11,380 nt of DNA from Planctomycetota bacterium (lineage in GTDB: Bacteria; Planctomycetota; Phycisphaerae; WQYP01). Every line of letters starts with the position of its first letter. Position 1 is the first letter of the stretch. Shown in pieces: positions 1,881 through 11,380 of this stretch. The translations under genes and the position numbers were made by a program. The stretch is taken from the NCBI GenBank assembly GCA_021785155.1, contig JAJYGE010000470.1, positions 1 through 11,380 of the forward strand. The letters run 5' to 3'. The notes under the pieces are model-generated. The model was not told the DNA's origin. It did no database searches and worked only from the letters and a program-made list of their open reading frames with translations.

Positions 1881-2417
1881 TTATGCGGAAACAGGTTGGT
1901 CGCCACTTTCCGCAGCCGGAGCTGCGGCGGGTTCTGATGCCGCAGTGGCCGGGACAGTTTGACCCTCGGCGGTCTTTTCACGCACCACCCAGACCTTGAT
2001 CTGACATTTTAAGTCGCCCGCCAACTGCACGGGTACCTGGAAGGTGTCAATGCGTCGCAGCGGTTCATCAAGGCGCACATCGTCCGCCTGCACGGCGTGT
2101 CCAAGTTTCTGCAGCTCCTCGGCAATATCGCGGCGGGAAACAGATCCAAACAAATGACCTTCGTCATTGGAGGCCCGGGCAATGGTGATTTCCAAGCCTT
2201 CAATAGCCTGCACCAGTTTTTCCTTCTGCTCGCGCAGAAGCTGGAGCTTGGCTTCATATTCTTTTCGGGCCGCTTCATAGCGTTTGATATTTCCCTCGGT
2301 CGGGGAAATTGCCAGATTGTGCGGCAGCAGGTAATTGCGGGCAAATCCATCGCGCACATTAACGACTTCGCCAACCGTGCCGATGTTTTCAATGGTGTCT
2401 GTCAACAATACTTTCAT
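1881..2417 (-). CDS. rplI: Large ribosomal subunit protein bL9
   Basis: bL9 binds 23S rRNA at the base of the L1 stalk and helps hold the reading frame. The 178-residue product starts MKVLLTDTIENIGTVGEVV and continues with the family signature G-x-x-V-N-V-R-D-G-F-A-R-N-Y-L-L-P (about residues 16-33). A long charged connecting helix (about 43-75) and the C-terminal domain follow. Typical bL9 has about 150 residues; here a tail of roughly 30 Ala/Pro/Glu-rich residues is added, probably disordered. The ATG at 2417 is supported by GAGG about 6 nt upstream and by the family N-terminus; an upstream ATG in frame would add ten unrelated residues. It lies 59 nt after ssb and is probably co-transcribed with it. 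The usual neighbour rpsR is not between them. Confidence 0.96.
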   Translation of the reverse strand: MKVLLTDTIENIGTVGEVVNVRDGFARNYLLPHNLAISPTEGNIKRYEAARKEYEAKLQLLREQKEKLVQAIEGLEITIARASNDEGHLFGSVSRRDIAEELQKLGHAVQADDVRLDEPLRRIDTFQVPVQLAGDLKCQIKVWVVREKTAEGQTVPATAASEPAAAPAAESGDQPVSA

Positions 2418-2476
2418 GGGGTACCTCAGTGTATTAAAAATTCTCACAATTTTATCAATCTATCTCCGGGTCTGTT

Positions 2477-2986
2477 TCAGAACGGGATGTCATCATCCCG
2501 GATGGGTGGACTGTCCGGTTCGGTGGGCGGCGGCCCATCGGTTGACGGTGCGGGTCGCGCCGGCGCGCTGCGTGCGGCGGGGCGGTACGCGGGGCGAGCG
2601 GACGCCGGCTCGCCGCCTTCCTCCGGGGCCGCTCCGGCCTCGCCGCTACCGGCGGGACGGCCATCAATGAATTGGAACCCTTCAATGATCACGCGCATTT
2701 TACTGCGTTTGGTGCCGTCCTGAGCATCCCACTGATCAAGCTTAAGTCGGCCCTCAATGAATACCGGGCGGCCCTTGCGCAGGTATTTGGAAAGGGTTTC
2801 AGCCTGCCGACCATAGGAGACACAATCGACGAAAGTGACTTCTTCCCGCGGCTGACCATCCTGGCTGTTCCAGCGACGATTGACCGCCAGGCCCATTTCA
2901 CAAACGGGGGTCTGACTGGGCAGATAACTTAACTGCGGATCGCGGGTAAGATTACCCATCAGAAACACTTTATTCAAATTGGCCAT
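2477..2986 (-). CDS. ssb: Single-stranded DNA-binding protein
   Basis: SSB coats single-stranded DNA in replication, repair and recombination and recruits partner proteins through its C-terminal tip. The 169 residues comprise an N-terminal OB-fold (about 1-108; MANLNKVFLMGNLTRDPQL, and later the block TFVDCVSYGRQAETLSKYL), a Gly/Ala/Pro/Arg-rich flexible linker (about 110-160) and the canonical acidic tip DDDIPF. The stop is TGA directly after this tip, which shows that TGA is a true stop codon in this genome. The ATG at 2986 is chosen because AGGAGAGG lies just upstream; the in-frame ATG at 3004 would overlap that site. The gene sits between rpsF (75 nt) and rplI (59 nt), the common bacterial arrangement. 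Confidence 0.96.
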   Translation of the reverse strand: MANLNKVFLMGNLTRDPQLSYLPSQTPVCEMGLAVNRRWNSQDGQPREEVTFVDCVSYGRQAETLSKYLRKGRPVFIEGRLKLDQWDAQDGTKRSKMRVIIEGFQFIDGRPAGSGEAGAAPEEGGEPASARPAYRPAARSAPARPAPSTDGPPPTEPDSPPIRDDDIPF

Positions 2987-3061
2987 GAACCTCTCCTGAT
3001 CCAATCAGGCCTGACCGCAGGTCGTACGGGATCGCATGAAAACGCATGGCCGACGGGCAAA

Positions 3062-3529
3062 TTACTTGCCGTCGGCGATATCTACCACAGTCACGGTTCC
3101 TTCAATGGCGTCAACCACCGGTTCCACAGAATTTGTGCGATCCCGATCAGGCCGCCGCGACGTGCTGCGCCCGAAGTGATCTTCCACAATCGGCTGCTGC
3201 GGAACCATGGCTTCCACATCCTTCAACGCCAGATGCTCGGCCTTAATGACCAGGACCCGCAGAATATTTTCCGATAACTGCGCGTCACGTTCAATGCCGG
3301 CGATCTTCGGGCCTTCCGCCTTGAAAAATGCCAGAACATATACACCGCGTTTGTTGCCTTTAATGGCATAGGCCAGGCGACGTTCATCCCATTTTCTAAG
3401 ATGCAGGATTTCAGCGTTGGCGCGGTGAAGTATATGCTCCACCTCCGCCTTCGCCGCATCCCAATTGCCGCTGGCATAGCCCGCGTTGAGAAGAAACATT
3501 GCCTCGTACTGCCGGACATGGGTAGCCAT
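3062..3529 (-). CDS. rpsF: Small ribosomal subunit protein bS6
   Basis: bS6 binds the central domain of 16S rRNA as a heterodimer with bS18. The product begins MATHVRQYEAMFLLN, and the family block KWDERRLAYAIKGNKRGVYVLAFF lies at about residues 46-69 (K46, R50, R51, Y54). At 155 residues it is longer than the typical ~95-135. The extra part is a charged, Arg/Asp-rich C-terminal tail after the ferredoxin-like domain (about residue 105 onward). The ATG at 3529 has GGAG about 7 nt upstream; the longer open frame adds a Cys/Gly-rich stretch foreign to the family. It lies 78 nt after pth and 75 nt before ssb. Its partner gene rpsR is absent from the window. Confidence 0.94.
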   Translation of the reverse strand: MATHVRQYEAMFLLNAGYASGNWDAAKAEVEHILHRANAEILHLRKWDERRLAYAIKGNKRGVYVLAFFKAEGPKIAGIERDAQLSENILRVLVIKAEHLALKDVEAMVPQQPIVEDHFGRSTSRRPDRDRTNSVEPVVDAIEGTVTVVDIADGK

Positions 3530-3607
3530 AAATGCTCCAATTCGCTCCAGACGGCGAGCGGCACAACACGCGCCGCCATGGGTTTCACCGCCGGGCACAA
3601 AAAATTA

Positions 3608-4210
3608 TCACTTCTCCGAACCCTCGTTGCCGACGTTAAAGCGATTCATCGCTTTCTCCACGCCATGCAAAGCCCAATATTGTACCGCCTCGGCCGCCTG
3701 GTTCAAAGCGACCTGCACATCCGCCCATTGGCCGGGCGAAAATGCGGACAATACATACGCTTCCAACGGCACCCGCCCAGGCTCATCCACGCCCACACGC
3801 AGGCGGGCATAATCGGTTGCCGCCCTGGATGTTGCCGTAACCAACGCACCCAGATGCCGTTGCACATCCGCCAAGCCGTTATGGCCGCCGCTGGAACCTC
3901 CGGCTCGCAGCCGGATTGTGCCGCAGGGAAGATGAATATCATCCACCACCACCAGCAGGTCCTCAATGGTCAGGCCATGGAATCGCATCGCCGCCGCCAT
4001 TGACTGCCCGCTGCGATTCATATACGTCGCGGGCTTGAGCAGTAGAATTTTATCGGGCCCCGATCCAATCTGACAGCACATTCCGTCAAAGCCCGACTTC
4101 CACCGTTCTCCGGCGGATCCGGCCAGAATATCCAGCACCATAAACCCGGCATTATGCCGCGTGCGGGCATATTCCGCACCTGGATTTCCTAAACCGGTCA
4201 CCAGTTTCAT
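3608..4210 (-). CDS. pth: Peptidyl-tRNA hydrolase
   Basis: The enzyme releases tRNA from peptidyl-tRNA dropped by ribosomes and is normally essential. It has 200 residues, the family's usual size (~190-200). The N-terminus MKLVTGLGNPGAEYARTRHNAGF is diagnostic. By alignment with the E. coli enzyme, the catalytic residues are Asn9, His19, Asp91 (in VVVDDIHLPCG) and Asn101 (in GGSSGGHNGL). The start is the ATG at 4210; the Shine-Dalgarno is only a weak G-rich CAGGGCGG. The stop is TGA. It lies 120 nt after rplY and 78 nt before rpsF. The rplY-pth pair is a common bacterial arrangement and links tRNA recycling with the 5S rRNA-binding protein. Confidence 0.96.
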   Translation of the reverse strand: MKLVTGLGNPGAEYARTRHNAGFMVLDILAGSAGERWKSGFDGMCCQIGSGPDKILLLKPATYMNRSGQSMAAAMRFHGLTIEDLLVVVDDIHLPCGTIRLRAGGSSGGHNGLADVQRHLGALVTATSRAATDYARLRVGVDEPGRVPLEAYVLSAFSPGQWADVQVALNQAAEAVQYWALHGVEKAMNRFNVGNEGSEK

Positions 4211-4330
4211 GCCGCCCTGCCCGTCCCGGCGTGCCGAGACAATCCTTTGCTGCCAACATTATTGCGGCATCGAAGATTTACGCGGCCAACGTCCGTGCCA
4301 GCACGCCGCCCGATCCGCAGCTTCCAGTGC

Positions 4331-5044
4331 TTATTTCTTGCCTGGAGCATCCTTCTTGGCACCCGGGGCCGCCGTCGCCGATGTCGCCGCTGCCGCTGCG
4401 CCTTCGGCGCCTTCCACCGGTTTCTTGCCGATCACTTCGGGTTCCGCCGGGCCTGCCGCCGCCGTCACTTCCGGCTCCACTTCCTTCACCGTGCGGACCT
4501 GACAGAGAATTTGCTCCGGCGGGTTGATCAACCGCACGCCGGCGGGCAGCGGAATATCTTTAGCATGAACCATCCCGTGTATTTCCAGGTGCTCCACGCT
4601 GAATCGGATGGTATCGGGAATATCCAGCGGCAGGACTTCCACTTCCACTTCCGCAATCTGCACTTCCAGGATTCCGCCCTCTTTGGCACCCTTGGGAATT
4701 CCCCGGAACTCCACGGGTACCTTTACGCGCACCTTGTGGCTCGGATCAATGCGCATGAAATCGACATGTTCAATGGCCATCTGCAGATGATCATATTGCA
4801 CATCCTGAATCAGTACGTGCTCTATGGAGCCATTGAGATTAATGTCCACCAGATGCGCTCCGGAGTGAATGGCGCGTTCGGTTTCCTTGGCCCCCAGTTC
4901 TATGGACAGGTTCTCTTTGGCCAGTCCGTAGAGGACGCCTGGAACCTTGCCCTGTTTCCGCAGTTGCAGGGCCCCCTTGCGCCCCGGTTCGCTGCGCACG
5001 GAGACTTCAAGGACGTGACGATTGTGTTCGGTTGTTGCCACCAT
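4331..5044 (-). CDS. rplY: Large ribosomal subunit protein bL25, Ctc (long) type
   Basis: This is the 5S rRNA-binding ribosomal protein of the longer Ctc form, which has two domains. Of its 237 residues, about 1-95 form the L25 domain (LEVSVRSEPGRKGALQLRK, then GKVPGVLYG, a block typical of the family). About 100-190 form the beta-rich C-terminal domain (HKVRVKVPVEFRGIPKGAK, EVEVLPLDIPD). The last ~45 residues are Ala/Glu/Pro/Lys-rich and probably disordered. The ATG at 5044 has GAGGAG about 8 nt upstream. The gene sits 64 nt after prs and 120 nt before pth. Ala/Pro-rich tails on bL25 and bL9 and a linker in SSB give these products a shared low-complexity character. Confidence 0.94.
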   Translation of the reverse strand: MVATTEHNRHVLEVSVRSEPGRKGALQLRKQGKVPGVLYGLAKENLSIELGAKETERAIHSGAHLVDINLNGSIEHVLIQDVQYDHLQMAIEHVDFMRIDPSHKVRVKVPVEFRGIPKGAKEGGILEVQIAEVEVEVLPLDIPDTIRFSVEHLEIHGMVHAKDIPLPAGVRLINPPEQILCQVRTVKEVEPEVTAAAGPAEPEVIGKKPVEGAEGAAAAATSATAAPGAKKDAPGKK

Positions 5045-5108
5045 GGCTGATTCTCCTCAATGAATGTTTGTTAACAAAATTCTCTGGTTTATTCTGTTTA
5101 TGTTCTTA

Positions 5109-6092
5109 TTATCGCTTTCCGCCATTGCCGCCATTATCAAATAAAATGGACACTGACTCATTCAAGTGTATGCGCTTGATGGCTTCCCCCAGCAGATCCG
5201 CCACGGAAAGTACCACCAGGCGATCTCGTATCGGATCAAGTCGCGCATCAAGGGGTACGGTATCGGTAATGACAATTTTAGCTATCGGACTTTTGGCCAG
5301 GCGTTCCACAGCGCTGCCGGCAAAAATACCGTGCGTGGCGGCAATATGCACCGCGCGGGCACCATGATCCATGAGAATTCGGCTGGCTTCCGAAACCGTT
5401 CCACCCGTGGTGATCATGTCATCAAACATCAGCACGGTTTTATCTTTAACATCACCGACAATGGTGGACATTGTAACTTTGGTGCCCGATTGCCGGCGCT
5501 TGTCAATAAACGCCAAATCACCACCGAGCACCTCGGCGTAATAACTCGCGGCCTTCAGATTTCCCGGATCAGGAGACACAATGGCGATGCGGCCCAATTC
5601 CGGAAGCTGCTTTTTATACCACGCCACAAACACCGGTGAGGCCAGCAGATGATCCACCGGCAAATCAAAGAATCCCTGCACCTGCGCCGCGTGTAAATCC
5701 ATCGCAATCACCCGGTCCACACCCGCGGCCGTGATGATGTTGGCCACCATCTTCGCGGTAATCGGGGTGCGGCCCTCGCTTTTGCGATCCTGCCGGGCGT
5801 AGCCGAAATACGGCACCACCGCGGTAATCCGCATGGCCGATGCCCGCATCAGGCAATCCACCCAGATCAGCAGTTCAATAAGCGTATCATTGACCGGCTG
5901 ACAGGTCGGCTGAACGATAAAGCAGTCTCTTCCGCGTACATCTTCATCAAGTTTAACGATCAACTCGCCATCCGGAAAACTTTCCGTGCGGGCCTTGCCC
6001 AATGGAATGCCGATGTGATCACAAATGTTTTTCGTCAGCCCCGGAGATCACCGGCCCGCGAAAATCTTCAGTTGATGTTGCAGATCACTCAT
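5109..6092 (-). CDS. prs: Ribose-phosphate pyrophosphokinase (PRPP synthetase) with an in-frame TGA at codon 15
   Basis: The enzyme makes PRPP from ribose 5-phosphate and ATP for nucleotide, NAD, His and Trp synthesis, and is usually essential. From the ATG at 6092 the frame reads MSDLQHQLKIFAGR, then TGA (6048-6050), then SPGLTKNICDHIGIPLGKAR and on to the end: 327 codons against 315-320 in E. coli and B. subtilis. Motifs, counting the TGA as residue 15: FPDGELIVKLDEDVRGRD at 39-56, ATP-site ARQDRK at 99-104, DLHA at 132-135, and PRPP loop FDDMITTGGT at 223-232. KIFAG and the following Leu keep exactly the E. coli spacing (KLFAGNATPEL), so this is a substitution, not a frameshift. The only later start is the TTG at 6002, without a ribosome site, and it would delete the first ~30 residues. 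It could be a point mutation, a consensus error or a read-through codon. The gene lies between glmU and rplY. Confidence 0.88.
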
Positions 6093-6254
6093 AGACAAAT
6101 ACCCGGGCGAAAATTTCTTCACCGTTCTTAAAACAAAATTTCCCCGGTGGCGCGTCACCGCACCATACCGAGTTCTTCATCCTTGAAACAAGAATCCCTA
6201 CAGACAGAGACCCTTGAAATCCTTGACGCCTTTACGCGCTCAAATCCGCCGTTG
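6093..6254. other. Spacer between the GlmU-like gene and prs
   Basis: These 162 nt hold no gene. The frame after the GlmU-like TAG reaches another stop (TGA) within five codons, so the beta-helix domain does not continue here. On the minus strand TTGTTT followed after ~17-18 nt by GTATGG/TATGGT is a weak promoter-like pair about 100 nt before the prs ATG. Only a poor G-rich sequence stands in front of that ATG. Confidence 0.3.
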
Positions 6255-7181
6255 CTATGCGGGAAATTTCCCGCCCCGGCCTATTATCATAGCGGCCGTC
6301 ACATGGCTGCCCGGAGCGATTTCCGCCCCCGCGCCAACCCACGTGAACGCCTCGAGCACAGTATCTTGACCGATTTTCGCGCCAAATTCAATCCATGTGT
6401 TCTCCGGGCTTACGATTGTCACTCCGGAATCCATTACCGCGGCCTGGATTCGGCGCTGCATAACGCGGCTCACCACCGCCAATTCCAGGCGGGAATTAAT
6501 GCTTAAAATGTCCTCCGCCGGCACCGCCGCTAAAGCCGTTACGCTCCGGCCCCCACGACGTACAATCGCCAACGTATCAGTTAAATAATATTCACCTTTT
6601 TGATTATTCGGCTTTATTTGATCCAATGCGCTAAAAAGAGATTCCGATTCGAACAAATAATAGGATGGGTTTACCTCCCGGATGGCGCGTTGGTCCGCCG
6701 AGGCGTCTTTTTCCTCCACAATCGCCAAAATCTCACCGGACGCATCGCGGACAATACGCCCATACCCGGCCGGATTATCTATCACACTCGTGGCCAACGT
6801 CATTGCGGCCTGCTTGCAGCGATGTTCCTCAAGGATTCGCGACAAGGTTGCAGGCCGAATTAACGGACCATCCCCGGCGAGTACAAAAACGTCACCGGCG
6901 AAGCCCCGCAACGCCTCCCGGCATACCTGAACCGCATGGCCCGTACCTTTCTGTTCTCGCTGATGCACCCACACAATATCTGCTTGCCCCGCAAACTCCC
7001 GCATAACCGCTTCCCGGTCGTGCCCCACCACCACCACAATACGCTCGGCACCAGCCTCTCGCACCGCATCGAGCACATACGCCAGCATGGCCCGCCCGCA
7101 AATTTCATGGAGCACCTTGACACGCTGACTTTTCATCCGGGTCGATTTACCGGCGGCGAGAATAATGGCGGCAATGGACAT
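6255..7181 (-). CDS. glmU: UDP-N-acetylglucosamine pyrophosphorylase (GlmU-like, uridylyltransferase domain only)
   Basis: The protein should join GlcNAc-1-phosphate and UTP to form UDP-GlcNAc, the precursor of peptidoglycan and lipid A sugars. The nucleotidyltransferase domain (about 1-230) shows LAAGKSTRMKS (8-18), QKGTGHAV (77-84), GDGP (103-106, Asp104 for metal), GYGRI (139-143), EVN (169-171), EYYLTD (197-202) and Asn229. A short left-handed beta-helix stretch follows (about 250-300), and the protein stops at residue 308. E. coli GlmU has 456 residues; its acetyltransferase domain is wholly missing here, so GlcN-1-phosphate acetylation must be done by another protein if this pathway is complete. 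The ATG at 7181 has AAGGAG about 9 nt upstream. The stop is TAG. It is the first protein gene after tRNA-Gln and precedes prs, which supports a precursor-supply role. Confidence 0.88.
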   Translation of the reverse strand: MSIAAIILAAGKSTRMKSQRVKVLHEICGRAMLAYVLDAVREAGAERIVVVVGHDREAVMREFAGQADIVWVHQREQKGTGHAVQVCREALRGFAGDVFVLAGDGPLIRPATLSRILEEHRCKQAAMTLATSVIDNPAGYGRIVRDASGEILAIVEEKDASADQRAIREVNPSYYLFESESLFSALDQIKPNNQKGEYYLTDTLAIVRRGGRSVTALAAVPAEDILSINSRLELAVVSRVMQRRIQAAVMDSGVTIVSPENTWIEFGAKIGQDTVLEAFTWVGAGAEIAPGSHVTAAMIIGRGGKFPA

Positions 7182-7497
7182 TTAACTTCGTCTCCTTTTC
7201 AGAGCCAACCTTCTGTGCCTTATTGGCTTTCCTGAGTTACTGTTTAAAATCTTCTGCGCGGCTTTGGTCTCTGGGAAAAAAAGCATCGAGCATGAGGGCA
7301 TTGAACAGTAGGCCGCAGGCGGCGTCACCGGGCAAACACCAGCAATTACTGCTGGCCAGCCTTATTTGCTCACCTGATCGCCTGCTCCATTTTCACCTGC
7401 TCTGTTTTGGCCTTCGGCCAAAGCATTTTGAGCAGTAGAGAGTAGAGCAGTAGACCGTCCCGGTGCGCCGGGACTCTGTTTTGGCATTCGGCCAAAA
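7182..7497. repeat. Hairpin-rich spacer between tRNA-Gln and the GlmU-like gene
   Basis: No gene is seen. Inverted repeats: ccagca-attac-tgctgg (7339-7355), tttggcc-ttc-ggccaaa (7406-7422, extendable to 10 bp with one G-T pair), gtcccgg-tgcg-ccgggac (7457-7474) and gttttggc-attcg-gccaaaac (7478-7498). Short direct repeats: agcagtaga at 7431 and 7446, and cctgctc at 7381 and 7397. On the minus strand a T7 run lies at 7282-7276. These could end the tRNA transcript or form mRNA structure ahead of glmU. None has the ideal hairpin-plus-U-tract form. Confidence 0.55.
7400..7424. repeat. 25-nt hairpin repeat, copy 1
   Basis: This unit, beginning ctctgttttggc and ending in ggccaaagc, matches the copy at 7474-7498 at 23 of 25 positions. 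Each copy is itself an inverted repeat around a small loop containing ttc. The two copies lie 74 nt apart in the same orientation. Confidence 0.7.
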
Positions 7498-7498
7498 C
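7474..7498. repeat. 25-nt hairpin repeat, copy 2, abutting the tRNA 3' end
   Basis: The second copy of the unit has two differences from copy 1. Here the stem is gttttggc/gccaaaac with loop attcg. Its last base, 7498, is also the discriminator base of the minus-strand tRNA-Gln, so the hairpin begins exactly where the mature tRNA ends. It may serve as a 3' processing or termination signal, or mark an insertion at the tRNA end. Confidence 0.7.
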
Positions 7499-7568
7499 TG
7501 GGGGATCTGGATTCGAACCAGAACAAGCAGAACCAAAATCTGCTGTGCTACCGTTACACCATCCCCCA
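7498..7568 (-). tRNA. tRNA-Gln (anticodon UUG)
   Basis: On the minus strand a 71-nt cloverleaf folds fully. The acceptor stem TGGGGGA (7568-7562) pairs with TCCCCCA. The D-arm region is GTGTAACGGTAGCAC. The anticodon arm is GCAGA-TTTTGGT-TCTGC, with TTG as bases 34-36. The T-arm is TCTGG-TTCGAAT-CCAGA. The discriminator is G and the first pair U1-A72 is weak; both are known identity features of bacterial tRNA-Gln. CCA is not encoded (TTT follows), so it must be added by the nucleotidyltransferase. It reads toward the GlmU-like gene and away from rimO. Confidence 0.96.
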
Positions 7569-7614
7569 AAAAGCGCTTGTCGGGCGCGAAATATCCGCAG
7601 ACGACAAGCCCTGT

Positions 7615-7644
7615 ACTGTATCCGATACGCCTACCACGGGTCAA
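7615..7644 (-). promoter_or_regulatory. Candidate sigma-70-type promoter for tRNA-Gln
   Basis: On the minus strand TTGACC (7644-7639) is followed after 18 nt by TACAGT (7620-7615). These match 5/6 and 4/6 of the consensus. Transcription would start near 7607, about 40 nt before the tRNA, just ahead of or within an inverted repeat that could serve leader processing. Confidence 0.5.
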
Positions 7645-7855
7645 ACCGCTGTTGGTTCCACACTCCGTGGTGGCGTGGCAATTTTTCCGGGCGAACAGCG
7701 AAATCAACGGCATAAATGCCGGCGCTTTAGAGAAGGGTTCGTCTTGGAAACTCGCACCCCGGACCCCTGCCCGGATTTACTGCCACGCCCGATCGGGAGG
7801 TTCGCGGCGGCTCACCTGCTGGTTTTAACACCTGGAATCTGCTATCCTCAATCAC

Positions 7856-7875
7856 GCCCAGATTGGGCAATTTTT
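7856..7875 (+). terminator. Small hairpin with T run ahead of rimO
   Basis: gccca-gat-tgggc is a perfect 5-bp stem with a 3-nt loop, followed by aa and five T, the shape of a weak intrinsic terminator on the plus strand. Its right arm is the same sequence as the proposed -35 box of rimO, so it may shield rimO from upstream transcription. The short stem keeps confidence low. Confidence 0.35.
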
Positions 7876-7891
7876 CCTGATTATGGATAAT
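7863..7891 (+). promoter_or_regulatory. Candidate promoter for rimO, very close to its start codon
   Basis: TTGGGC (7863-7868) and GATAAT (7886-7891; 5/6 to TATAAT) are spaced by exactly 17 nt. Only 11 nt separate the -10 box from the ATG, and no purine-rich Shine-Dalgarno is present. Transcription would begin about 4-6 nt before the ATG, giving a leaderless or nearly leaderless mRNA. Confidence 0.5.
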
Positions 7892-7902
7892 GTGATCGCA
7901 CG

Positions 7903-9408
7903 ATGGCTGGACGAAAAAATATAAAATCCAAGACAACTGTGTTCCCGGCAGTACGGCGGGTGGCACTGGTCTCTTTGGGTTGCCCCAAGAACCTCATTGA
8001 CAGTGAACGGATGCTCGGATTATTGGCCGCTGATGGCATCGCCATTACCGATGATCACGCCGCCGCCGATGCCATTGTCATTAACACCTGCGGCTTTCTG
8101 GAAGCCAGCAAAGCCGAGGCACTGGAAGTTATTAACGAAGCGTTGGGCGAAAAAGCCAAAGCGTTGAAAAAAGGCCGGGACAAACGTGTGATTGTCGCCG
8201 GCTGTCTGGTGCAGCGCCAACGCTCCAAATTATTGGATGAAGCGCCCGGTGTTGATGCTCTCGTGGGTGTATTTGATCGCGAAAATATTGTCACTGCGGT
8301 GCGCGGATCATCCGCCGCGGTCGCCAATGCGGATATGGGAGAATTCCATGCGGTAACGCAAATGATTCATCGCCATGACCGCGGCAAGGTCGGCTATTTT
8401 GAATCCGATGCGGGCCGCCTGCGCCTGACACCCCGGCATTATGGCTATTTGCGCATTTCCGAAGGCTGCAATCAGGGCTGCACCTTTTGCACCATTCCCA
8501 GTATCCGTGGCCGTATGCGCAGCAAGCCTCTTGCCGATATTATCAATGAAGCCCGCGAACTGGTTACCGATGGAGCCTTTGAACTCAATGTCATTGGGCA
8601 GGATACCACCAGTTACGGCAGTGATATTGGTTATGACGGCCCCGGCCAGGGCTTGACCGGCCTGATTAAAACGTTGGATAAACTCGATAGCGTCGGCTGG
8701 ATTCGTTTGATGTACGCCTATCCAAGCTGCTTTGCCGATGACATGATTAAGGCTCTGGCCGATGCCGGGCGATGGGTCAAATACATTGATATGCCTTTGC
8801 AGCATATCAATGATGATATTCTGCACACCATGCGCCGCAAAACTTCCCGGCGGCAAATAACCACCCTGCTGGAAAAACTCCGCAAATGGATTCCCGGCAT
8901 CAGTATTCGCACCACCTTTATCAGCGGGTTTCCCGGAGAAACCGAGGCGCAACATGCTGAATTGGTGGAGTTTGTGCGGCAGTTTGAATTTGACTGTCTG
9001 GGCGTTTTTGAATATTCGCCCGAGCCGGAAACGCCGGCTGGGCGACTGTGGAAATCGCAAGCTGTCGCGGCGGAGGTGGCCAAACGGCGTCGGGAAGAAA
9101 TTATGCTCGCCCAGCAGGAAGTGGTGTTCAAGGTCAATCAGGCGCAGGTTGGGAAGACCGTTGCCGTGCTTATTGACGCCGCGGACAAAAAGCGGCGCAC
9201 GGCGGTTGGGCGTCATGCCGGGCAGGCCCCGGATATTGACGGGCAGGTGCTGCTGCAAGGTATTGATGCGACAGCGGGTGATATAATTCAGGCGGAAATT
9301 GAAGATTGGAAGCATTACGATTTAATCGCCACGCCCATTGATTATAAAGCAGTCCGCGCCGGCCATAAGCCGTTAAGCCTCCCGGTTTTTGCCGGCGATA
9401 CGGAATAA
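7903..9408 (+). CDS. rimO: Ribosomal protein uS12 methylthiotransferase
   Basis: RimO is a radical-SAM enzyme with two [4Fe-4S] clusters that methylthiolates a conserved aspartate of uS12. Its domains are the N-terminal MTTase domain with Cys27 (SLGCPKN), Cys63 (NTCGF) and Cys101 (AGCLVQR); the radical SAM core with Cys189, Cys193 and Cys196 (EGCNQGCTFC) followed by IPSIRGRMRSK; and a C-terminal TRAM RNA-binding domain (about 405-480). SLGCPKN and the IPSIRGRMRS context favour RimO over MiaB. At 501 residues it is longer than E. coli RimO (441): there is a basic extension of about 17 residues before VRRVALVSLGCPKN and some extra C-terminal sequence. The ATG at 7903 has no Shine-Dalgarno but suits the close promoter; a GTG at 7939 is an alternative start. 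It is divergent from tRNA-Gln and lies 210 nt upstream of pgsA, with which it may share a transcript. Confidence 0.94.
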   Translation: MAGRKNIKSKTTVFPAVRRVALVSLGCPKNLIDSERMLGLLAADGIAITDDHAAADAIVINTCGFLEASKAEALEVINEALGEKAKALKKGRDKRVIVAGCLVQRQRSKLLDEAPGVDALVGVFDRENIVTAVRGSSAAVANADMGEFHAVTQMIHRHDRGKVGYFESDAGRLRLTPRHYGYLRISEGCNQGCTFCTIPSIRGRMRSKPLADIINEARELVTDGAFELNVIGQDTTSYGSDIGYDGPGQGLTGLIKTLDKLDSVGWIRLMYAYPSCFADDMIKALADAGRWVKYIDMPLQHINDDILHTMRRKTSRRQITTLLEKLRKWIPGISIRTTFISGFPGETEAQHAELVEFVRQFEFDCLGVFEYSPEPETPAGRLWKSQAVAAEVAKRRREEIMLAQQEVVFKVNQAQVGKTVAVLIDAADKKRRTAVGRHAGQAPDIDGQVLLQGIDATAGDIIQAEIEDWKHYDLIATPIDYKAVRAGHKPLSLPVFAGDTE

Positions 9409-9618
9409 CAGGCCGTCCGATCGATCGCGTCGGCAGCGACGGCGGAATGATTTCCCCGGCAGGCGCGGCGTGGTCGGCGATCTGATCGGGAATTGACGAA
9501 GGAATCTCCGAAGCGGTGCGGACCGTAAAACCAAAGGCTGTTGGCGGGCTTGGCCGTGACAAGGCATACAATACCTTGGGGGAAACGCGGCAGTGGCTTG
9601 GTTCAGGCGTGACATGAT

Positions 9619-10254
9619 ATGTACCGGCAAATCCCCAATCTGATAACATTAAGCCGACTTGTGCTCACGGCTCTCTTTTTTATTGCCATCAATTTTGCGG
9701 GGCATCAGCGGAATATTTCGCTTTGCATGTGGATTGCGCTGGTTATTTTTATGCTTGCGGTGGCCAGCGACGCACTTGACGGTTATCTGGCTCGATCCTG
9801 GAAAGTGGAAAGTGCGTTTGGCCGGGTTGTGGATCCATTTGCGGATAAAATTCTCATCTGTGGGGCATTTATATTTTTCGCCGCGCCGCAACTCATGTTG
9901 CCGCATCTTACCCTCACGCCCGTGGCCCAAGGTTCGGAGCTTACCGGCGTCGCGCCATGGATGGCGGTGGTGCTGATTGCTCGGGAATTTCTGGTGACAG
10001 GCATCCGCGGGCTGGCGGAATCCAAAGGCATCGACTTTCGCGCGATGTGGACCGGGAAAGTTAAAATGATGGTGCAATGTGCGGCGGTGGTGGGCGTGCT
10101 GGTATATCTGGCGCTGGTATATGAGATTCAAAATCAGGCGGTGCTGGAATTTTTCCGCTGGGCACGGGACATCGCAATCTGGGCCACGCTGATTATCACA
10201 ATTGTCTCCGCCTGGCAATACATTTCCAAGGCCTGGCGCATTATTGACGCATAG
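9619..10254 (+). CDS. pgsA: CDP-diacylglycerol--glycerol-3-phosphate 3-phosphatidyltransferase
   Basis: This integral membrane enzyme makes phosphatidylglycerol phosphate, the committed step to phosphatidylglycerol and cardiolipin. Of its 211 residues the N-terminus MYRQIPNLITLSRLVLTALF is typical of PgsA. The complete CDP-alcohol phosphatidyltransferase signature is present: Asp51, Asp54, Gly55, Ala58, Arg59, Gly68, Asp72 and Asp76 in the D-x2-DG-x2-AR-x8-G-x3-D-x3-D pattern. Hydrophobic segments lie at about 9-27, 35-50, 77-90, 110-127, 148-165 and 180-200, which suits a six-helix protein. The ATG at 9619 has only a weak ribosome site. It follows rimO on the same strand and converges with ilvE. 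Other CDP-alcohol transferases share the motif, but length and N-terminus favour PgsA. Confidence 0.9.
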   Translation: MYRQIPNLITLSRLVLTALFFIAINFAGHQRNISLCMWIALVIFMLAVASDALDGYLARSWKVESAFGRVVDPFADKILICGAFIFFAAPQLMLPHLTLTPVAQGSELTGVAPWMAVVLIAREFLVTGIRGLAESKGIDFRAMWTGKVKMMVQCAAVVGVLVYLALVYEIQNQAVLEFFRWARDIAIWATLIITIVSAWQYISKAWRIIDA

Positions 10255-10273
10255 TCGGCCAGCCGGGATTTGA

Positions 10274-10298
10274 TCCGTCGCCCGCGCGGAAATTTTTT
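10274..10298 (+). terminator. Candidate intrinsic terminator for pgsA
   Basis: TCCGT (10274-10278) can pair with GCGGA (10286-10290) using one G-T pair, around a 7-nt loop, and aaTTTTTT follows. It starts 20 nt after the pgsA stop in the convergent gap. The stem is short, so it would be weak. Confidence 0.35.
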
Positions 10299-10338
10299 GA
10301 TCCGTGTGTTATCTGTGGAGGTAAAATGATAGCGCTGG

Positions 10339-11256
10339 TCACACGCCTGTCGCCAGTTTTTCCCGCTGGCTTTTGGCGGCGGGGGATTCGGCGTGGCCGC
10401 CGTTGCGCGCGTAATGATGAAACGTGGTGGTGAGTTGCCGGGTGATCGGCCCGACTTGGCCGTCGCCGATCATGCGTTTGTCCACACTGGTCACAGGAAC
10501 CACTTCCGCGCCGGTGCCCGTCAGGAAACATTCATCGGCGGTGTATAAATCATAACGTGTCAGATTGGTTTGCTGCGTTGGAATGCCCGCCGCCTGCGCC
10601 AGCTCCAGAACCGCTTCCCGCGTAATGCCCAGCAGAATACCGCTTTCTTCCGCGGGTGTCCGCAATTGGCCATCCCGCACGATAAAAATATTATCCGCGG
10701 TACATTCACACACGAAGCCCAGCGGATTGAGCATCACCGCTTCCGGCACGCCGGCGTCAATGGCTTCCCATTTGGCCATGATATTATTGAGGTAATTCAG
10801 GCTTTTAATTTTCGGTGACAACGCCGCCGCCGCAATACGCGGTGTACTGGCGGTAATAATGGCCATGCCTTTGCGGTACGTCGCCTCCGAGTACATTTTA
10901 ATGGTATCGGCAATGATAAAAATAGAGGGTTTGCCGCAGTTAGCCGGAGAGATGCCCAGCGCCCCCACGCCGCGCGTTACCAGAAGGCGAATATAGGAAT
11001 CGGCGAGTTTATTGGCCTGCAACGTGGCGGCGATGGCTTCGCCAATGTCATGTTGCGAAAGCGGAATTTCCAGGCGAATGGCCTTGGCCGAGTTATAGAG
11101 CCGCTTGAGGTGATCAGCCAGGCGAAATACGCGGCCATTGTATTGGCGCAGGCCCTCAAATACGCCGTCACCATAAAGCAGTCCGTGATCAAAAACACTC
11201 ACGGCGGCTTGCTCCATGGGAACCAGCCGCCCATCCATCCACACCATTTTGCTCAT
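10339..11256 (-). CDS. ilvE: Branched-chain amino acid aminotransferase (class IV, PLP-dependent)
   Basis: The enzyme transfers the amino group between glutamate and the 2-oxo acids of Val, Leu and Ile, the last step of their synthesis. Its 305 residues match the class-IV fold length. It begins with VWMDGRLVPMEQAAVSVFDHG, then LLYGDGVFEGLR (26-37). The PLP Schiff-base lysine is Lys151 in KSLNYLNNIMAK, and Glu184 (CECTADNIF) is the likely pyridine-nitrogen partner. LLGITR (208-213) and LTGTGAEVVPV (245-255) complete the cofactor site. The start is the ATG at 11256, with a modest AGGCGG ribosome site and a good promoter about 35-65 nt upstream. D-amino acid aminotransferase or aminodeoxychorismate lyase are related alternatives, but KSLNYLNN and GTGAEVVPV favour IlvE. 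Confidence 0.9.
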   Translation of the reverse strand: MSKMVWMDGRLVPMEQAAVSVFDHGLLYGDGVFEGLRQYNGRVFRLADHLKRLYNSAKAIRLEIPLSQHDIGEAIAATLQANKLADSYIRLLVTRGVGALGISPANCGKPSIFIIADTIKMYSEATYRKGMAIITASTPRIAAAALSPKIKSLNYLNNIMAKWEAIDAGVPEAVMLNPLGFVCECTADNIFIVRDGQLRTPAEESGILLGITREAVLELAQAAGIPTQQTNLTRYDLYTADECFLTGTGAEVVPVTSVDKRMIGDGQVGPITRQLTTTFHHYARNGGHAESPAAKSQREKLATGV

Positions 11257-11294
11257 AACCGGACCGCCTGTTCATAACAGTTACAGAGTTTAAC

Positions 11295-11323
11295 ATTTTA
11301 ATCGCAGAAGGCGACGGAAGCAA
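11295..11323 (-). promoter_or_regulatory. Candidate sigma-70-type promoter for ilvE
   Basis: On the minus strand TTGCTT (11323-11318) is followed after exactly 17 nt by TAAAAT (11300-11295; 5/6 to the -10 consensus). The start of transcription would fall near 11288, leaving a leader of about 30 nt before the ATG. Confidence 0.55.
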
Positions 11324-11349
11324 AAAAGGGGGGATTTGCCCTTCGCCTG

Positions 11350-11368
11350 GGGGTGTGTGACACTTTAC
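11350..11368 (+). repeat. Motif shared with 441-459, copy 2
   Basis: The word ending tgtgacactttac lies upstream of the ilvE promoter near the window edge. With the copy at 441-459 it brackets the whole gene block in direct orientation. What follows it is outside the window. Confidence 0.4.
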
Positions 11369-11380
11369 GCGGGTTACGCA

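Follow-up and report, generated by a model that had tools for sequence, protein, structure and literature searches.

Gene content of the window

The window analyzed here is a stretch of 11,380 nucleotides from an uncultured planctomycete. Its putative genes, named from features of their sequences, are galE, rplI, ssb, rpsF, pth, a long L25/Ctc-type ribosomal protein gene, prs, a GlmU-like gene, tRNA-Gln, rimO, pgsA and ilvE; Pfam was run on the prs, GlmU-like, galE-like and rimO-like proteins only. When the window was compared by blastn (E 1e-10) with three longer stretches from relatives (L088–L090), matches were confined to positions ~1921–7590, with none on the galE side (1–1900) or on the rimO–pgsA–ilvE side (7590–11,380). 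The segment at 7356–7482, beside the tRNA-Gln, matches four places within ~570 bases of L088 (7120–7693), pointing to a small local repeat that flanks the tRNA in that relative. The GlmU-like protein (6255–7181, minus strand) is 308 residues long and contains a nucleotidyltransferase domain and a short hexapeptide stretch, without a full acetyltransferase half. Its counterparts in five congeners (L001, L004, L006, L007 and L008) are 308–309 residues long, and so the short form looks like a lineage trait rather than a break; the L003 protein shares the same end and measures 378 residues from its first Met.

An in-frame TGA in prs

The prs frame, which encodes ribose-phosphate pyrophosphokinase (PRPP synthetase, Prs), spans 5109–6092 on the minus strand. 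Translation from the ATG at 6092 yields MSDLQHQLKIFAGR, followed by an in-frame TGA at codon 15 (6050–6048), after which the frame continues as SPGLTKNICDHIGIPLGKARTESF through to its stop at 5111–5109. The identity of the gene is supported by the part downstream of the TGA, in which the Pribosyltran_N and phosphoribosyltransferase domains score above the Pfam cut-offs (PF13793, 149 bits against a cut-off of 25; PF14572, 84.3 against 27; PF00156, 43.6 against 26.3). This part also matches solved Prs sequences with E values down to 4.5e-83. The domain order of PF13793 and PF14572 is that of Prs, and the window protein contains DLHAAQ and DDMITTGGT, which we take to be typical Prs motifs. Where it departs from the family is at its start: the N-terminal strand and the core do not lie in a single open frame but are separated by the TGA at codon 15, which is accompanied by an altered codon 16, a combination seen in no relative read.

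The initial annotation of this DNA, made from the letters alone, had described the TGA as lying in a frame with homology intact on both sides, and this description holds for the sequence as given. Spacing around the TGA equals that of the eight closest relatives with zero indels, which also upholds the earlier exclusion of a frameshift. A frameshift or bypass is ruled out by this lack of indels, and both other frames were seen by eye to close shortly after the site. An alternative genetic code is likewise ruled out, as TGA terminates four other genes of the window (galE, ssb, pth and ilvE), in agreement with the earlier view that it is a genuine stop here.

Sense codons at the site in the relatives examined

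Scanning genome contigs gave 93 confirmed stretches, of which 79 distinct loci were kept. The best eight encode Prs proteins 94–96% identical to the window protein beyond the stop and belong to MAGs of uncultured Planctomycetota, one of them labelled Phycisphaerales. No prs DNA closer than 85% was present in the genomes searched from the genus (8) or the family (28), which indicates that the window's own species is not among the genomes searched. In one of the 28 family genomes, G022, we found a 31-base match only and no prs.

With respect to codon 15 itself, 60 distinct sequences among 111 Prs records (the window included) were readable at the site by motif. Aligning relatives at this codon had been proposed at the outset as a check, and it revealed a sense codon, and no stop, in all 59 of the other distinct loci. 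A further 20 Prs sequences that missed the motif were read as peptides and have no stop, and the remaining 31 are, by subtraction, duplicates.

In a protein search, 8000 candidates were scored and the best 120 were listed; the database was clustered at 90%, so closer relatives may hide behind representatives. Among these best 120, 118 run through the site, and the two that begin after it (P0039 and P0097) are possible fragments, their contigs being 1,058 bases long. The initial annotation had regarded relatives starting downstream of the codon as evidence against read-through, and these two are the sole sequences of that kind among the best 120. At an ungapped offset, the residue facing codon 15 in the 118 is Ala in 82, Ser in 32, Asn in two, and Tyr and Gly in one each, such that 114 of 118 carry Ser or Ala. 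A KIFAG-like strand precedes the site in all 44 relatives whose N-termini were read. That the contig fuses the sequences of two species at this point was also considered and rejected, the identity to each of six relatives being alike on both sides.

A private four-base block creates the TGA

Comparison with the eight closest relatives revealed 18 private positions among the 981 of the window prs. Four of these are contiguous and form a GATC block at 6049–6046 (minus strand), where the eight relatives agree among themselves. This block creates the TGA and alters codon 16, and three of its four bases fall at first or second codon positions. If private sites were placed at random, such a run would be expected ~1e-4 times by a crude hand calculation. 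The TGA had initially been treated as a single-base event, one base from GGA (Gly) or TCA (Ser). That account has to be replaced by one of four contiguous private bases in which codon 16 is changed as well. Moreover, two or three substitutions separate TGA from the Ser and Ala codons found in the eight closest relatives, and the argument from a one-base distance to GGA or TCA, judged against these codons, does not fit this lineage.

The same block was recovered when 5.3 kb of the window were aligned to six relatives (without G002 and G006, and with G001 covering part only). The window is the longest branch in this alignment, with 304 private columns compared to 4–108 for the others. It contains three other private four-base runs, at 4601, 2994 and 2637, as well as three private three-base runs, and the six relatives have no private four-base run at all. 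The run at 4601 is in coding sequence of the L25-like gene that aligns without gaps, from which it follows that four-base runs can also arise by ordinary divergence on this long branch; the run at 2994 is beside the ssb start, and that at 2637 is late in ssb. Within prs, the block at 6049–6046 is the sole private four-base run, and conserved residues are affected. GATC does not recur in any other private three- or four-base run of the 5.3-kb alignment. An exact 23-base search for the block in viral contigs gave zero matches, which says little, since this is expected for a bacterial gene.

The start of prs also contains three copies of GTGATC within 72 bases (6017–6088, minus strand). These are located at codons 2–4, at the block, and in a GTGATCAC palindrome at 6022. 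The first and last of these stretches pair with one another in a predicted RNA fold, and their counterparts in relative L001 are predicted to pair too.

Selective constraint and copy number

Compared with the eight closest relatives from codon 17 onward, the window frame has a dN/dS of 0.024–0.032. The corresponding values are 0.010–0.054 among tabulated pairs of those relatives, and mostly higher against more distant ones. Of the 14 private prs positions outside the block, one alters the protein (N260S). This constraint, comparable to that in the relatives, indicates that normal selection acted on the frame until very recently, or still does. A long-standing pseudogene is ruled out on the same grounds, as relaxed constraint is absent and N260S is the only private protein change outside the block.

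In terms of copy number, PF13793 has exactly one match in each of eight congeneric genomes, none of which contains a second prs, and all 14 control genomes match the family. One full-length Prs was found in each of 13 relatives searched, with an extra weak 70-residue match in G013. The prs counts, and those for selA and selB given below, refer to relatives' genomes that are MAGs of untold completeness, the window's own genome standing outside them. PMC9221600 bears on the essentiality of prs. With one prs in each of the eight congeneric genomes, a real null is expected to be lethal; a fixed null would be expected to be so unless the window genome has something that its relatives lack.

Origin of the block

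Taken together, these observations are most consistent with the TGA being the product of a four-base error at 6049–6046 in the contig consensus, to which we assign a probability of about 0.7. The stop-containing block is private, length-preserving and placed within a constrained gene. We infer that it originated in sequencing or assembly. Under this reading, an uncultured Phycisphaerales-like planctomycete would carry an ordinary, functional prs, and the in-frame TGA would be an accident of the consensus error. Errors four bases long are uncommon in consensus sequence. Nonetheless, the expected lethality of a null, the single occurrence of the stop and the absence of decay tip the balance toward error. 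The block shares with consensus and assembly errors in metagenome contigs, as generally known, its private and sharply bounded character, its restriction to a single sequence and the otherwise undecayed state of the gene; it differs in being length-preserving and four bases long, which is less common than single-base or homopolymer errors. A candidate route is suggested by the plus strand, on which the site reads AGATC, presumably the first five bases of a common Illumina adapter. An untrimmed five-base adapter stub at a read or contig end, if merged into the consensus, would yield a length-preserving block. As no other private run of three or four bases is GATC, the adapter route leans on one site and a ~1-in-256 coincidence. 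Among the publications listed on adapter remnants and misassembly, none was judged to be on point.

The principal competitor, which we regard as doubtful though well ahead of the other alternatives, is a recent and real multinucleotide mutation in which a short stretch of GTGATCT at 6088–6082 (codons 2–4) was copied 37 bases downstream in the course of replication, replacing four bases and inactivating prs. The strain would then belong to a lineage that is rare or dying out, or its genome would encode a further PRPP synthetase that covers the loss. The block indeed falls within a second GTGATCT, at 6051–6045 (minus strand), which gives a 7-base direct match to the possible template upstream; the upstream copy is present in five of six relatives aligned, with G005 differing by one base. 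Counting the observed one, 5 of 256 tetramers would give a match of at least 7 bases within 50 bases of the site, but 13 of 256 do as well within 100 bases and 22 of 256 within 150, so that the match is suggestive only. Template switching has been described as a cause of multinucleotide changes in excerpts of PMC8604942 and PMC7954356, and the changes described there resemble the block in that adjacent bases are replaced together and matching sequence lies nearby. However, the excerpt of PMC8604942 concerns switching between inverted repeats, whereas a direct copy is needed here, and the match in the window spans 7 bases only and loses weight as the radius is widened. The coincidences behind the adapter stub and the 7-mer are each modest. 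What weighs further against a real mutation is the copy number of prs: no second copy in the eight congeneric genomes, and one full-length match in 13 of 13 relatives. The remaining readings keep the TGA and a working enzyme. One, that translation starts at the TTG at 6002 or at a non-standard codon and gives an N-terminally shortened but working Prs, is very improbable. The initial annotation had found no ATG or GTG before the conserved core, and indeed none comes first after the stop, but TTG 6002 opens a 297-residue frame (5109–6002, minus strand), the longest downstream alternative, which still matches PF13793. This frame enters the profile only at position 25 and lacks everything through codon 30, including the KIFAG-like strand kept in all of the relatives noted above, and no purine-rich ribosome site was seen by eye before the TTG. 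Although P0039 and P0097 do begin after the site, in 118 of the best 120 homologues the post-stop part is preceded by 11 or more residues. The solved sequences agree: of 32 matched, one is an amidophosphoribosyltransferase and the other 31 are PRPP synthetases or associated proteins (two), and in each of these 31 the chain ahead of the aligned region exceeds that of the query by 8 residues or more.

Read-through of a real TGA, whether by near-cognate decoding, a suppressor tRNA or selenocysteine insertion, would give full-length Prs, perhaps at a low level, and we hold it to be just as improbable as the shortened protein. Full constraint on the frame after the stop and the single-copy state of prs in the congeneric genomes searched are in keeping with it. 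An error or a very recent stop would, however, leave the same constraint just as readily. TGA ends four other window genes, and no recoding model explains the codon 16 change made by the same block. Selenocysteine in particular is considered unlikely, and the case against recoding, which for the machinery draws on relatives' genomes, is strong though short of final. Within the eight congeneric genomes, selA was absent at E ≤ 0.001 (controls: 4 of 14 match, one above the cut-off) and selB was nowhere above its cut-off (controls: 2 of 14); the sub-cut-off selB matches cover profile positions 1–301 of 581, as expected of other translation GTPases. The predicted RNA fold at the site is no stronger than that of shuffled sequences (z −0.08 and +1.23), and a SECIS-type hairpin just after the UGA is not seen, the 61-base segment that starts at the UGA being less stably folded than shuffled versions are on average (z +1.23). 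Cys faces the UGA in 0 of the 118 homologues read (of the best 120). The prs frame resembles known UGA recoding in having an in-frame UGA followed by conserved coding sequence, but differs in the lack of Cys homologues, of selA in the genus genomes searched and of special RNA structure. Among the publications listed on in-frame TGA, read-through and essential bacterial genes, none was judged to be on point. Among the options raised in the initial annotation, then, a consensus error fits best, a null covered by a second prs gains no backing from the relatives, read-through is without positive evidence, and a downstream start is opposed by the homologues.

Implications

The prs gene is normally an uninterrupted, essential housekeeping gene that makes PRPP, and here a stop stands near its start in one environmental sequence. 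The most likely source of this stop is faulty assembly or a private mutation of very recent date, and not a new way of reading genes. An essential single-copy enzyme dependent on stop read-through would be surprising if real. A living planctomycete lineage whose single prs truly has UGA as codon 15, and in which read-through supplies enough PRPP synthetase, would have its PRPP supply limited by the decoding of one stop codon; we consider such a lineage very improbable. The living organism most likely carries a sense codon at codon 15 and makes a normal PRPP synthetase. The case shows that a private multi-base block in one contig can mimic recoding, and that most of the answer comes from asking how wide the change is and which codons relatives have there.
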